A stretch of 64,000 nucleotides of DNA from Alloacidobacterium dinghuense. GTDB taxonomy: Bacteria > Acidobacteriota > Terriglobia > Terriglobales > Acidobacteriaceae. Below the pieces are notes generated by a model. That model had not been told where the DNA came from. It was given only the letters and a program-made list of their open reading frames with translations, and did not search any database. Positions within the stretch are counted from its first letter, which is position 1. The number at the start of each line of letters is the position of its first letter. Of this stretch, positions 40,472-45,470 are shown one piece after another. The stretch lies in assembly GCF_014274465.1 (NCBI RefSeq), contig NZ_CP060394.1:4960001-5024000 (forward strand), given 5' to 3'. Position numbers and translations under genes: made by a program.

Positions 40472-40780
40472 CTACTTTCCGACCTCTTCAGTCGTCACGG
40501 AAGCGATGGCGCTCTTCACCACTTCCAGCTTGATGTTGTCCGGGGGGACACGCAACTGAATCGCATCCTCTTTCAGCGAGAGAATCGTCCCGCGGATGCC
40601 GCCCGTCGTCGTGACCTTGTCGCCGGGCTTCAGCTCATTGAGCATCTGCTGCCACTTCTTCTGCTTGTTCTGGTTCGGTCGAATCAGCAGCAGATAAAAA
40701 ACCGCAATAATGACCACGAAGGGCAGAAAAGAGACCAGGCCTGGAGGAAGTGCGCCCGCTAGAAGCAGTGTTGCGTTCAA
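40472..40780 (-). CDS. yajC: Preprotein translocase subunit YajC
   Basis: 102 residues from TTG 40780, which has AAGGA 8 bases upstream; the open frame reaches further but without a ribosome site. One helix (about 18-36) followed by LIRPNQNKQKKWQQML, the YajC motif, and the small domain LKPGDKVTTTGGIRGTI. Stabilises SecDF at the translocon. First gene of yajC-secD-secF. Confidence 0.93.
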   Translation of the reverse strand: MNATLLLAGALPPGLVSFLPFVVIIAVFYLLLIRPNQNKQKKWQQMLNELKPGDKVTTTGGIRGTILSLKEDAIQLRVPPDNIKLEVVKSAIASVTTEEVGK

Positions 40781-40960
40781 CTTGCAATCCTTTTCCCTGC
40801 CTAGGCTTCGCGCCTCGCGCAAGGTACAAATAATAGTTTGTATCCGCGGAAGGGATTTGGACAGCGCCAACGCCTTTTAAGGCGGCTGCTATTTCCTTCA
40901 GGAACACAGTCCCCGTGTCCCGTTCAGCCTGGGGCGCACAACGATATTTCAGGCGCGTAA

Positions 40961-41524
40961 ATGCAGGCCACAGATGCCGGGAAGGGTCCTAGCTTCCTAG
41001 CTTTTCAGCAGGGAGCGGCTTATGTCAAGGCTTGGAAGCGTACACAGCAACCTGGCCTACCGTTCATTCTTGAGGTAGATCATTCTATAAATCTCCCGAT
41101 CACGACAAACATTCGGGTATTATCCGGTTCTGTGGGGGCATACGCTCAAGACGAAATTGACGACCTGATCTCGCGTCGCAAGACCTTTTCTGAGGCACCC
41201 CGAAGAGAACTCAAGATTGAGGGAGCTCACGCCCGCAATGACGCTAAATTGGTCGCAGAGAATGTGAGCGGCGAATTCCGAATGTTTATGAGGCGCAGCG
41301 AGGATTTTCCGGAGAATTTCTCAATCGGACTCGTATATCAGCCCACGGACGGTAGTGGGGAGATTACGTTGCTGAGATGCAACGGTAAGCATGGTGAGTA
41401 TAGGGGCACTTTTGACCCCGACCATCCGCACTATGATTTTCATATTCACAAAGCCGATGCAGCAATTATGGCAACGGGGTGCAGACCAGAGAAGAACGCC
41501 GCAAAGACCTTAGAATACGCGTAA
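40961..41524 (+). CDS. Uncharacterised protein, first gene of the DUF1828 pair; probably ends at a premature TAA
   Basis: 187 residues; family not named with certainty. Seen: no signal peptide or membrane helix; a basic helical middle (DEIDDLISRRKTFSEAPRR, about 67-85) and then a compact C-terminal domain (about 100-175) with FRMFMRRSEDFPENFSIGLV, ITLLRCNGKHGEYRG and HPHYDFHIHKADAA. The His-rich HxHYDFHIH could bind metal or be catalytic. Directly after the TAA the same frame continues with 32 coding-like codons, so the gene was probably longer. It reads more A/T-rich than its neighbours. The start codon is uncertain: no good ribosome site precedes it, and the first 30 residues look atypical. 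Confidence 0.6.
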   Translation: MQATDAGKGPSFLAFQQGAAYVKAWKRTQQPGLPFILEVDHSINLPITTNIRVLSGSVGAYAQDEIDDLISRRKTFSEAPRRELKIEGAHARNDAKLVAENVSGEFRMFMRRSEDFPENFSIGLVYQPTDGSGEITLLRCNGKHGEYRGTFDPDHPHYDFHIHKADAAIMATGCRPEKNAAKTLEYA

Positions 41525-41623
41525 TACGAGGAGGCGCTTCAATATTTCATTAAAATCATTAACTTGGACCCGGAAGAGGCAGGCAAACATTTTCCCTTTA
41601 TACAAGCGAAGTTGCCGTTTTGA
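41525..41623 (+). pseudogene. In-frame continuation of the preceding gene beyond its TAA
   Basis: The 32 codons after the TAA read YEEALQYFIKIINLDPEEAG followed by KHFPFIQAKLPF and a TGA. This amphipathic, protein-like sequence is in the same frame as the upstream gene and ends 12 bases before the next gene, exactly where a natural end would be expected. A single-base nonsense change is the simplest reading; readthrough or a sequencing error are alternatives. Confidence 0.6.
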
Positions 41624-41635
41624 GCAAGGAGTTCG

Positions 41636-42412
41636 ATGGACGCTTTAGAGACACTTAAATCGGAATTTAATGACCATGTTTCATTTCGAACGAAACGGCC
41701 GGGGATCGTTCAGGTCCTCGCTCCCTTATTTCACGAAGACGGCGACATGATAGATGTCTTCATCGATTTGCCGAGTTCTCCTAACTCCGAAATTCGGATC
41801 ACCGATCATGGACTTACGCTCATGCGGTTGTCCTATGTGTATGACATAGACACGCCAACAAAGCGCAAAATTTTTAACCGCATCTTGTCAGAAAACGGTG
41901 TCAAGGAGGAACACGGGCGACTCTTTATTGAGAGCTCTCCAGAATACATTTACCCTGCGTTTATGCAATTTGCGCAAACAGTCGCAAAAGTCAGCAATAT
42001 GCAGCTATTCAAGCGCGAAGTGGTGCAGAATCTTTTCTATGAGATGCTCGGCGATTTCGTTACCAGTACTCTCTATCGTTACCATCCACAGAAGGACTGC
42101 GTGCCAGATCCAAAAAGAGAGGAGCTTCAGGTGGACTGGAACTTTTCACTCAAGCCCCGCCCTATTTTCCTTTATGGGGTGAAGGATAGCGCCAAATCTA
42201 GGTTCGCCGCACTCGCGTGTCGCGAATTTCAGATCGTGAAACTCCCCTTCCGGAGCGTGATTGTCCACGAGGACTTTGAGAATGGTTTGAGCAAAAGAGA
42301 TCAAGCACTAATCACCAATGCTGTAGATAAGCAATTCACTACGCTTGCCGATTTTCAGCAGAATGCTGAGGCTTATTTTGAACGCGAAGCTGAGGGGCAG
42401 ATCGTCCAGTAA
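41636..42412 (+). CDS. DUF1828/DUF1829-type protein
   Basis: 258 residues, ATG preceded by AAGGAG (41626-41631). The N-terminal part (about 10-100) matches the look of DUF1828: MIDVFIDLPSSPNSEIRITD then HGLTLMRLSY, then RKIFNRILSENGVKEEHGRL. The C-terminal part (about 130-245) fits DUF1829, with KPRPIFLYGVKDSAKSRFAA. No signal or membrane helix, so cytosolic. The family is uncharacterised and scattered in genomes, often beside a second small unknown gene, as here. A toxin-antitoxin or anti-phage role is inference only. Confidence 0.75.
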   Translation: MDALETLKSEFNDHVSFRTKRPGIVQVLAPLFHEDGDMIDVFIDLPSSPNSEIRITDHGLTLMRLSYVYDIDTPTKRKIFNRILSENGVKEEHGRLFIESSPEYIYPAFMQFAQTVAKVSNMQLFKREVVQNLFYEMLGDFVTSTLYRYHPQKDCVPDPKREELQVDWNFSLKPRPIFLYGVKDSAKSRFAALACREFQIVKLPFRSVIVHEDFENGLSKRDQALITNAVDKQFTTLADFQQNAEAYFEREAEGQIVQ

Positions 42413-42515
42413 TTCAACCCAGGAAAACCTGCGAGGGAGGGCCGCCTATTCAGCGATTTAGGAGTTTTCTTTACCTCTGGACTACCACGCTTTATCCAAT
42501 GCTATCCTTCCGCGC

Positions 42516-43022
42516 ATGACTGAATTCCCCGTAAATCCTCAGCGCCACGACCCCTACAAGAATTTCAAATTCCGCGTGAAGTGGGACGGCAAGTATGTCG
42601 CGGCCGTCTCCAAGTTCAGCGGCCTCAAGCGCACCACCGAAGTCGTGGAGCACCGCGAAGGTGGCGACCCCAGCACCAGCCGGAAGTCGCCAGGACTGAC
42701 TCAGTTCGCGCCTATCGTGCTCGAACGTGGGTTGACCCAGGATCACGCCTTCGAGGAATGGGCCAACCTGGTGTGGAAGCTGGGCGCAGGGCTGGGCTCC
42801 GAAGTCGCCTTGAAGGAGTTCCGCAAGGATATCGTCATCGAACTCTACAACGAAGCCGGCCAACTCGTGTACGCCTTCAAGGTCTTCCGTTGCTGGCCAT
42901 CGGAATACCAGGCGCTGCCGGACCTCGATGCCGACGCCAACGCCATCGCCATAGAGCATCTGAAGCTGGAGAACGAAGGCTGGGAGCGCGACTCGTCAGT
43001 TACAGAGCCAGTCGAACCATGA
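42516..43022 (+). CDS. Orphan contractile-tail tube protein (T4 gp19/Hcp-like)
   Basis: 168 residues that fit the gp19 'phage tail region' family: DPYKNFKFRVKWDGKYVAAV (about 12-31), the core SGLKRTTEVVEHREGG (about 35-50), PGLTQFAPIVLERGLTQD (about 58-75), DIVIELYNEAGQLVYAFKVF (about 108-127) and CWPSEYQALPDLDADANAIA then IEHLKLENEGW. Such proteins stack as hexamers to form the inner tube of phage tails and contractile injection systems. No sheath, baseplate, spike or ATPase gene lies nearby. Its stop overlaps by ATGA a possible start of the next gene. Confidence 0.85.
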   Translation: MTEFPVNPQRHDPYKNFKFRVKWDGKYVAAVSKFSGLKRTTEVVEHREGGDPSTSRKSPGLTQFAPIVLERGLTQDHAFEEWANLVWKLGAGLGSEVALKEFRKDIVIELYNEAGQLVYAFKVFRCWPSEYQALPDLDADANAIAIEHLKLENEGWERDSSVTEPVEP

Positions 43023-43048
43023 CAAATCGAACATCTCCGCCATTTTCC

Positions 43049-45319
43049 ATGAAGAGAATCGCCTGTTTCATCGCCCTGATCTCCATAACCGCCGTCGCTT
43101 CCGCCCAACTCTCACCGCAGTTCACAACAACCCTCGACGGCATGATGAACAAGAACGAATTCGCCTCGGCTCACTTCGGACCCGCACGCTGGCTGCATGA
43201 CGGGGCCGAATACACGACCGTCGAGCCATCTAAGGATGTTCCCAAGTCGGATGCCAATCCGAGCGGCGGCGATGACATCGTCCAGTATGAGACGGCCACC
43301 GGCAAACGGTCCGTCCTCGTCTCGGCCAAGAAACTGATTCCCACATCAGCCGGCAAACCCCTCAGCATCGACGACTACACCTGGTCGAATGACAACCGCC
43401 TGCTGCTCATCTACACAAATTCCCAAAGAGTCTGGAGACAGAACACTCGGGGCGACTACTGGGTCCTCGATCTCGCCAGCGGCAAATTGAAGCAGCTGGG
43501 CGGCGGTGGTCCCGAATCCTCCATGATGTTCGCGAAATTCTCACCTGACTCCCGCAGCGTCGCCTTTGTGCGTGCCAACAACATCTATGTCCAGGACCTG
43601 GCAACCGATGCCGTCCACGCCCTTACCACAGATGGCTCGACAACCCTAATCAACGGAACCTCGGACTGGGTGAATGAAGAAGAGCTCGAAATTCGTGACG
43701 GTTTCCGCTGGAGTCCCGACAGCCAGTCCATCGCATTCTGGCAATTCGACACCACGCACGTCGGCGAATACACGCTGATCAATGACACCAAGGAGCGCTA
43801 CCCGGTAACCACGAAATATCTCTACCCGCAGCCCGGAACTACCAACTCCGCCGTTCGCGCCGGCGTGGTTTCCGTCGAGGGCGGTCCTGCGCGCTGGATG
43901 CAACTCCCCGGCGACGCGCGCGAGCACTACATCGCGCGCATCGACTGGGCCAACTCCGATGAATTGATCATCGAATACCTGAACCGTCTCCAGAACACCA
44001 ATCAGGTCTTTCTGGCGAACGCAAAGACCGGCGAGGCGCGTGTTTTCTTCACCGACGAAGACAAAGCCTGGGTCGATGTTGTCGATTCTTTTGATTGGAT
44101 TGGAAAGGACAAAGGCCTCATCTGGCTCAGCGAGCGCGATGGCTGGAGGCACGCTTATGTTTTTTCTCGTGCAACCGGGCAGCCCCAACTCATCACCAAT
44201 TTCACCGGCGACGTCATCTCTGAAAACACAGTCGACGACAAGAACGGCTGGCTCTACTTCGCTGCCTCCCCGGATAACGCCACCCAGTCTTACCTCTATC
44301 GTTCGCGCCTCGACGGCAGTGGAACACCCGAGCGAATCACTCCTTCGTCTCAGCCCGGATCGCACTTCTATGACCTCTCGCCCGATGGCCAGTGGGCTTT
44401 CCACCGCTACTCCACCTTCAATCACCCCTGGGTCACCGATCTTGTGCATCTGCCCGACCACAAAGTCGTTCGCGTGCTTCAGGCAAATGAGGATCTGACG
44501 CGCAAAGTGCAGGATCTCGTTTCCTCGCCGACAGAATTCTTCAAGGTTCCTGTCTCCGGTGGCGTGACACTCGATGGCTGGATGATTCGTCCACCCAACT
44601 TCGACCCCACAAAGAAATATCCAGTGCTGATCCAGGTCTATGGAGAACCCGCAAGCACAACGGTACGAGATTTATGGATGGGCCAAACGCGCCTCTACCA
44701 CTCGTTGATTGCACGCGAAGGGTACATCGTTGTCAGCTTCGACAATCAGGGAACTCCCGCTCCCAAAGGCAGGGAATGGCGCAAGGTCGTATACGGCAGC
44801 GTCGGCGTGCTTTCGGCAGCGCAGCAGTCTGATGCCATCCGGGAGCTTGGCAAGGAACACAGCTATATCGACATGTCGCGCCTCGCTGTCTGGGGTTGGA
44901 GCGGCGGGGGATCGAACACCCTCAATCTCATGTTTCGCTCGCCCGGACTCTTCAAGGCAGGCATCGCCGTCGCTCCTGTCGCCGACGAAAGTCGCTACGA
45001 CACCATCTATCAGGAGCGCTACATGGGCCTGCCGCAGCAGAACGTGAAGGGCTACCACGACGGCTCGCCCATCAACTTCGCCGAAGGACTCACCGGGCAT
45101 TTGCTCGTCATTCACGGTTCAGGCGATGACAACGTGCACTTTCAGGGAACAGAGTTGCTGATCAACCGTCTCGTCGAGCTCGGCAAGCCCTTCGATTTCA
45201 TGGACTACCCCAATCGCACCCACGGCATTTATGAAGGCAAGGGAACCTCATTCCACGTCTACAGTCTAATTGCCCGTTACCTCGCCGAGCATGTCCCGCC
45301 CGGCGGTGTCCCGCAGTAG
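43049..45319 (+). CDS. Secreted dipeptidyl-peptidase IV-like S9 serine peptidase
   Basis: 756 residues from ATG 43049, chosen for the signal peptide MKRIACFIALISITAVASA. An ATG at 43019 overlapping the tail-tube stop would add ten residues. N-terminal beta-propeller (about 40-490) with EEELEIRDGFRWSPDS, holding the Glu pair that binds the substrate N-terminus in DPP4. C-terminal alpha/beta hydrolase: nucleophile GWSGGGSN (usually GWSYGG), Asp in HGSGDDNVHF, and His in NRTHGIYEG. Expected to cut X-Pro/X-Ala dipeptides in the periplasm. The open frame upstream of 43019 is the other-frame reading of the tube gene. Confidence 0.92.
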   Translation: MKRIACFIALISITAVASAQLSPQFTTTLDGMMNKNEFASAHFGPARWLHDGAEYTTVEPSKDVPKSDANPSGGDDIVQYETATGKRSVLVSAKKLIPTSAGKPLSIDDYTWSNDNRLLLIYTNSQRVWRQNTRGDYWVLDLASGKLKQLGGGGPESSMMFAKFSPDSRSVAFVRANNIYVQDLATDAVHALTTDGSTTLINGTSDWVNEEELEIRDGFRWSPDSQSIAFWQFDTTHVGEYTLINDTKERYPVTTKYLYPQPGTTNSAVRAGVVSVEGGPARWMQLPGDAREHYIARIDWANSDELIIEYLNRLQNTNQVFLANAKTGEARVFFTDEDKAWVDVVDSFDWIGKDKGLIWLSERDGWRHAYVFSRATGQPQLITNFTGDVISENTVDDKNGWLYFAASPDNATQSYLYRSRLDGSGTPERITPSSQPGSHFYDLSPDGQWAFHRYSTFNHPWVTDLVHLPDHKVVRVLQANEDLTRKVQDLVSSPTEFFKVPVSGGVTLDGWMIRPPNFDPTKKYPVLIQVYGEPASTTVRDLWMGQTRLYHSLIAREGYIVVSFDNQGTPAPKGREWRKVVYGSVGVLSAAQQSDAIRELGKEHSYIDMSRLAVWGWSGGGSNTLNLMFRSPGLFKAGIAVAPVADESRYDTIYQERYMGLPQQNVKGYHDGSPINFAEGLTGHLLVIHGSGDDNVHFQGTELLINRLVELGKPFDFMDYPNRTHGIYEGKGTSFHVYSLIARYLAEHVPPGGVPQ

Positions 45320-45470
45320 GACACAAATTTCAGGGCCATCGCGGCCACGCACATGCCGACCCTGCGTCTATTCACGAGGTCTGTCCGTCTTCTATCTCCA
45401 AGTGAGCAAAAGCGCTCCGGCTTGCCGTTTTGATTCTCCGTACAGTTGAGGTAAGCGGAGCGCGGCTCAC

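Follow-up and report, generated by a model that had tools for sequence, protein, structure and literature searches.

A pair of genes in the genome of Alloacidobacterium dinghuense is best read as a partner-linked module of the toxin–antitoxin or small-defence type, to judge from its own sequence and that of its relatives. The pair lies in a stretch of 64,000 nucleotides (the window) from a genome that consists of a single contig of 6.27 Mb; it is foreign to this genome and was acquired horizontally. It represents a divergent DUF6978–DUF1828 module of the kind named PDC-M24 among the phage-defence candidates of PADLOC-DB 2.0, for which we see about an even chance of a role in toxin–antitoxin-like abortive infection or as an accessory to restriction–modification (R-M), with gene 1 as the effector and gene 2 as the guard. 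The window copy, whose gene 1 lacks the C-terminal end, is probably disarmed and inactive, with gene 2 left as an orphan partner (Table 1).

The open reading frame list of the window has both genes on one strand, at 40961-41524 and 41636-42412, in agreement with the two-gene unit proposed in a first-pass annotation of this DNA. That annotation had also placed the unit between the sec operon and a peptidase gene. The sec side is correct, as the divergent yajC-secD-secF genes adjoin the pair, but on the other side a gp19-type tube gene (42516-43022) lies directly downstream of gene 2 and precedes the peptidase (M1). This solitary T4 gp19-type tail-tube gene (PF06841, E 6e-45) is the sole copy in the genome, in which a search found no member of the sheath family PF04984, and a sequence resembling it occurs at another location in genome G284 (72% over 462 bases). 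The spacing of the two genes, described at first as tight, is a gap of 111 bp in the window, because an in-frame TAA ends gene 1 early. On inspection of the window, none of the genes adjoining the pair was recognisable as an R-M gene or another defence gene, and neither Rfam families nor tRNAs were found near the pair.

Table 1. Features of the gene pair and of the segment that carries it, in positions of the window.
Feature	Position	Strand	Basis or remark
AT-richer foreign segment with the pair	41041..42412	.	Congener alignments end at the left junction, ~41031-41041; right edge undefined
Gene 1, conserved form, divergent DUF6978 relative	41132..41524	+	Begins with GTG and ends at an in-frame TAA after 130 codons; probably truncated
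HPHYDFHIH motif, candidate active site with K17 and R82 (L083 numbering)	41423..41449	+	Residue conservation
In-frame stop TAA of gene 1	41522-41524	+	Serine codon there in 5/5 compared relatives
Remnant of the gene 1 C-terminal tail, in frame	41525..41623	+	32 codons plus TGA; can be aligned to the C-terminus of intact relatives
AAGGAG, ribosome-binding-site-like, for gene 2	41626..41631	+	Read in the sequence; 4 bases before ATG 41636
Gene 2, DUF1828 protein, 258 aa, intact	41636..42412	+	PF08861 E 5.2e-18; PDC-M24B E 7.8e-16
Gene 2 N-terminal domain, aa 1-125	41636..42010	+	Model resembles type III secretion chaperones and YbjN
Gene 2 C-terminal domain, aa 129-256	42020..42403	+	Modelled restriction-endonuclease-like fold without (D/E)xK motif

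The foreign origin of the unit was evident from a comparison with three congeners. From position 40500 onward, the window aligns with G477 to 41031 (85%), with G478 to 41038 (80%), and with G254 to 41041 (79%), and the pair is missing at this site in all three of them; a search of the G254 genome found no match to either gene. The alignment with G477 restarts at 45399, the window DNA up to about this position being different from that congener. The higher A/T content given in the first-pass annotation was borne out: the conserved part of gene 1 has a GC content of 0.514, and gene 2 one of 0.471. At third codon positions, GC is 0.557 in gene 1 and 0.537 in gene 2; the values are 0.73 for secD/secF and 0.81 for the M1 peptidase, and the 39 stop-to-stop frames in the window that reach 300 codons, some of which are perhaps not genes, have a median of 0.67. 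Within the class, gene 2 has a match in just 25 of 299 genomes. Direct repeats of 8 to 14 bases were not found at the edges of the foreign segment. The congeners also vary in the stretch from 41041 to 45399, which separates yajC from the M1 peptidase and is represented by ~0.73 kb of other DNA in G477 and by ~2.3 kb in G254; it may be a variable site. To the left of the junction, the DNA upstream of yajC (~40940-41040) is conserved well past the gene in the three congeners, including the region around 40985-41030, and has no match to an Rfam family.

As the congener alignments end at 41031-41041, the junction with the foreign DNA falls inside the called reading frame 40961-41524. The first ~25 codons of this frame are native DNA common to all three congeners, and similarity to relatives begins at the GTG at 41132, which replaces 40961 as the start of the conserved protein. 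We therefore rejected the description of gene 1 as a 187-residue, His-rich protein from ATG 40961, as the N-terminal third of that product is partly native and has no counterpart in relatives. The called protein, which had no Pfam, NCBIfam, or PADLOC match, aligned with phrog_27326 (E 1.5e-11) over residues 63-186 on profile positions 7-129 of 164, a range that suggested a true protein that starts later and extends beyond the called frame. In line with this, the codons past the TAA still align with the C-terminal end of relatives; compared with the relative L083, pN is 0.29 and pS 0.81 behind the stop, 0.16 and 0.80 before it, and 0.12 and 0.78 over 256 codons of gene 2. By these values, the stop seems to be of recent date and gene 2 to be under constraint. 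Gene 1 of the window is probably truncated, with its conserved C-terminal tail removed. The lost part corresponds to the last two helices (132-142 and 147-153) of the L083 model, and the conserved Lys, Arg, and His positions precede the stop and are kept. A gene 1 with an in-frame stop near the position seen in the window, and with a readable conserved tail behind it, was also noted in L102 (7498-8001).

By its sequence, gene 1 belongs with DUF6978 (PF22398), the family of PDC-M24A, as a divergent relative. Among the 61 aligned gene 1 proteins, 47 matched DUF6978 at E ≤ 1 (best 7.3e-12), the phage relative L002 lying above the curated cut-off and L005 and L010 below it, and the Lys, Arg, and HxH positions of DUF6978 are common to the gene 1 family. 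The window protein itself has no match to DUF6978 or to any other Pfam model, including the TumE model PF20126, for which none of 61 genomes gave a match either. A profile comparison between the gene 1 family and the Firmicute/phage set gave an E of 2e-4 with a probability of only 46.6%. The PDC-M24A models matched the gene 1 homologues of phage and of Staphylococcus/Streptococcus (L002, L003, and L004; E 1.2e-8 to 9.4e-24) and, weakly, L010 (E 0.0074); they had no match to L005, to gene 1 of the close relative G189 or, at E ≤ 1, to gene 1 of the window. Plasmid and phage records searched by tblastn contained no match to the window gene 1 protein, nor did viral contigs; gene 2 matched three plasmid and four phage records.

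The first-pass annotation had named the pair the strongest candidate in the window for an undescribed system; as a candidate it is not undescribed, since the DUF6978–DUF1828 pair is already catalogued as the PADLOC candidate PDC-M24A/B. The window has the same partners in the same A-then-B order on the same strand, but its gene 1 is truncated, unlike gene A of PDC-M24, and the PDC-M24B model covers gene 2 only at residues 12-152. Our literature search found no paper that mentions PDC-M24 and none on the function of the DUF6978–DUF1828 pair. A comparable case is DS-6/HipAD, a tested two-gene defence system of E. coli that combines a HipA-like kinase with a DUF3037–DUF1829 protein (PMC13092281). 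The authors of that publication predict that the DUF3037–DUF1829 protein binds the kinase and DNA, and they propose a toxin–antitoxin mechanism. The likeness lies in a defence system of two genes, one for a toxin-like effector and the other for its DUF1829 partner; the differences are the kinase effector, the other N-terminal domain, and gene 2 of the window, which has no detected DUF1829. With DUF1829 undetected in the window protein, HipAD would be an indirect precedent for our pair.

In the gene 1 family, K17, H104, and H106 (L083 numbering) are present in all 61 aligned sequences, R82, N84, and G85 in 60, E61 in 59, H87 in 58, and H100 in 56. The HPHYDFHIH segment had been pointed out in advance as a candidate active or metal site, which this conservation favours: its last two His are invariant in the 61 aligned relatives, and its second His is found in 56 of them. 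K17, R82, H104, and H106 stay invariant when Firmicute members are included in the alignment. The possible reading of gene 1 as an enzyme comes from these conserved residues only. The gene 1 model, computed for the relative L083 with 61 sequences, reached a pLDDT of 93 and a pTM of 0.86 and had no significant match in the PDB (Foldseek best E 0.37; VIA best Z 5.8). In a viral library, one phage protein was matched (E 1.9e-3, probability 1.00) and otherwise nothing significant. These missing structural matches do not make the modelled gene 1 a new fold. When solved structures were searched by sequence, nothing significant was obtained for gene 1 or gene 2.

Gene 2 is a DUF1828 (PF08861) protein, as annotated at first, with 65.6 bits against a curated cut-off of 22. 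The DUF1829 domain (PF08862) that had been assigned to it as well was not recovered: Pfam gave no match at E ≤ 1, and a profile comparison found no similarity between the C-terminal part of gene 2 and Firmicute/phage DUF1828–DUF1829 proteins. The two PDC-M24B models matched with E 7.8e-16 (residues 12-152 on profile positions 16-155 of 255) and 1e-8. The model of the window protein, computed with 81 sequences (pLDDT 89.5, pTM 0.57), had no Foldseek match at E ≤ 0.001. In VIA comparisons, residues 1-125 resembled 3cxj (Z 9.6, 117 residues aligned), the type III secretion chaperones Spa15 (9.4, 108 aligned), InvB and ExsC (both 8.6), and CesT (8.2), as well as YbjN (7.1). A similarity to secretion chaperones was not found by sequence profile, the one match (E 0.31) being unrelated, and no secretion genes were noted beside the pair. 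The C-terminal domain (~aa 125-256) resembled PspGI (Z 9.6, 123 aligned, rmsd 3.0), Can2 (9.4), and Cdn1 and Bax1 (both 9.1), and response-regulator receiver domains reached a Z of up to 7.6 on the same part. A PD-(D/E)xK nuclease requires an acidic residue in strand 2 and a (D/E)xK in strand 3; the latter is absent from strand 3 (177-182) of the gene 2 model and family. The conserved residues of this region are D167 (79 of 81 sequences), E165 (68), D184 (67), K187 (60), and K183 (59). With Z values of ~9 at a pTM of 0.57 as their basis, the models suggest that gene 2 combines a chaperone-like domain with a restriction-endonuclease-like domain that lacks the usual catalytic motif.

The partnership of the two genes is conserved well beyond the window. 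A genome search with the gene 2 alignment found 121 relatives, of which the best 80 were kept as loci; the near-identical loci L115, L145, L147, and L169-L172 were left out of the gene 1 and gene 2 family alignments. In 78 of these best 80 of 121 loci, gene 2 is preceded on its strand by gene 1, either complete or reduced to a remnant, so the lack of co-occurrence that the first-pass annotation had named among its refuting findings was not observed. Gene 1 is adjacent to gene 2 in 77 of the 80, and ~1.9 kb away in L101; L091 and L094 have no gene 1. An intact gene 1 is present in 58 of the best 80 of 121, and all 58 copies overlap gene 2 or sit no more than 21 bp from it, with 34 overlaps, 24 of them by 4 bp. 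The intact relatives, in contrast to the window with its truncated gene 1, have the small two-gene operon known from toxin–antitoxin systems. Within the same class, G228 has a canonical DUF6978 gene (E 6.9e-44) upstream of a DUF1828 gene, and the DUF6978–DUF1828 pair is widespread across bacterial phyla, judged by record titles, and in phages.

Some neighbouring genes deserve mention in their own right. L091 and L094 have a DUF2283 gene (PF10049, E 9.4e-18) upstream of gene 2, with an overlap of 4 bases between the two; L029 1283-1498 denotes the place of L091 as well. The frame that precedes the DUF2283 gene has no Pfam match; we take it to resemble a DUF4258 toxin-like protein. L108 (7281-8060) and L127 (8796-9548) are distant genomes with a common gene directly 3' of gene 2, 55% identical. 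Two of the neighbour proteins had a DUF5131 match, probably these genes of L108 and L127; 12 of 142 neighbour proteins were left out of their alignment for length.

The two partners are not lost equally. As the loci described above had been found via gene 2 and were restricted to the best 80 of 121, we set their decay count (22 of 80 without an intact gene 1, 1 of 80 without an intact gene 2) aside as a test and ran the gene 1 and gene 2 profiles independently over the same 299 genomes of the class. The resulting count covers 22 gene 2 places at E < 1e-20; a further 15 weaker places belong to a different subfamily and were omitted, some of them having a canonical DUF6978 partner. Gene 2 was intact in 21 of the 22 places, whereas gene 1 was intact in 9, broken in 10, and absent in 3. 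All nine intact gene 1 copies accompany an intact gene 2, both genes are broken on contig 155 of G043, and contig 192 of G050 has a gene 1 fragment with no gene 2 match on the contig. An intact gene 2 with a broken (9) or absent (3) gene 1 was found at 12 places, and the reverse at none (exact p 4.9e-4); with remnants only, the count is 9 versus 0 (p 0.0039). By genus, since several genomes share one, there are eight genera with loss of gene 1 only and none with the reverse. The gene 1 lesions are of several kinds: the window has a stop, G062, G172, and G163 have frameshifts, G188 has a displacement, and G043 (contig 49), G141, G258, and G210 have 5' truncations. This pattern would be expected if gene 1, and not gene 2, were harmful or costly, although it does not prove toxicity and would also fit an accessory gene 1 beside a self-sufficient gene 2.

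An association of DUF1828 genes with defence genes, for which the first-pass annotation had proposed a survey, was observed for R-M. R-M-like genes flank 20 of the 80 loci (951 kb; best 80 of 121) as compared to 0 of 40 control stretches (668 kb; Fisher p 1.6e-4), a count made with eight query proteins that were taken from the test loci themselves, in which L113 and L115 are near-duplicates and the matches in L099 and L106 are short, and in which all 40 controls came from the window's own or related Acidobacteria genomes and the 80 test loci span many phyla. Together with the linkage of the partners (78 of 80), this association supports in part the original suggestion of a toxin–antitoxin or small-defence module; in the copy at hand, gene 1 is truncated.

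From the one-sided loss of gene 1, we infer that gene 1 may be an effector that comes at a cost, with gene 2 as protector or sensor. The effector would be a small beta-rich protein, possibly a nuclease, with a conserved Lys/Arg/His-x-His pocket. Gene 2 would restrain it through the chaperone-like N-terminal domain and would sense or bind nucleic acid through the catalytically degenerate restriction-endonuclease-like domain, and infection or failure of R-M would release gene 1. In the host genome of the window, gene 1 has lost its C-terminal helices, and gene 2 would be retained as an orphan antitoxin-like gene. The roles may also be reversed, which we regard as possible but clearly less probable: gene 2 would then be the active component, either DNA-binding or a nuclease effector, and gene 1 a regulatory or specificity factor that the module can do without and frequently loses. 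The persistence of gene 2 without gene 1, with 79 of the 80 gene-2-baited loci (best 80 of 121) retaining it intact, agrees with this, as does the resemblance of its modelled C-terminal half to PspGI, Can2, and Cdn1. However, as strand 3 lacks (D/E)xK, canonical catalysis by gene 2 is doubtful, and the strictly conserved Lys/Arg/His cluster belongs to gene 1 and not to gene 2.

It is distinctly unlikely, in our view, that the pair does not act alone and instead tunes or protects type I or type III R-M systems. In L119, the pair is located between mod and res of a type III system, mod is directly upstream of it in L125, L135, and L139, HsdM-type genes are near it in L113 and L141, and a DNA methylase lies upstream in L111. 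However, the flanks of 60 of the 80 loci (best 80 of 121) had no match to an R-M query, and the phage-type copies lie by themselves in the vicinity of repressor or integrase genes. Pseudomonas phage 5371 has the pair two genes after cI, in Streptococcus phage MissF it immediately follows an HTH gene and lies two genes ahead of the integrase, and in a Staphylococcus epidermidis plasmid record it directly precedes an integrase; the gene 1 homologues of these three records are DUF6978 proteins (E 7.3e-12, 6e-34, and 2e-20). Such positions would suit a pair left behind in the chromosome from a prophage lysogeny module, which could have served, for example, in lysogeny control or superinfection exclusion. 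We consider this very improbable, as most of the bacterial loci were not recognised as prophage in an unsystematic look, and relatives of the window's own subfamily were found in only five viral contigs.

Within the effector–guard reading, a bolder version can be formulated, which we put forward as an unlikely speculation: DUF6978 could be a new class of small RNase, metal-free or metal-dependent, with a Lys, Arg, and His-x-His site in an unseen fold. It would be kept inert under a two-domain guard, of which the chaperone-like half grips the toxin and the dead restriction-enzyme-like half reads nucleic acid, and it would fire upon R-M failure or on phage-altered DNA, with Acidobacteria repeatedly breaking only the toxin.

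The window version is a divergent variant of a catalogued kind of candidate with its first gene broken; it illustrates the disarming and is itself a poor copy for experiments, and its interest lies mostly in the asymmetry of loss and in the modelled folds of gene 2. The DUF6978–DUF1828 pair has so far been catalogued as a defence candidate only; with its one-sided loss, the conserved pocket of gene 1, and the two folds modelled for gene 2, it now offers an effector–guard hypothesis that can be tested.
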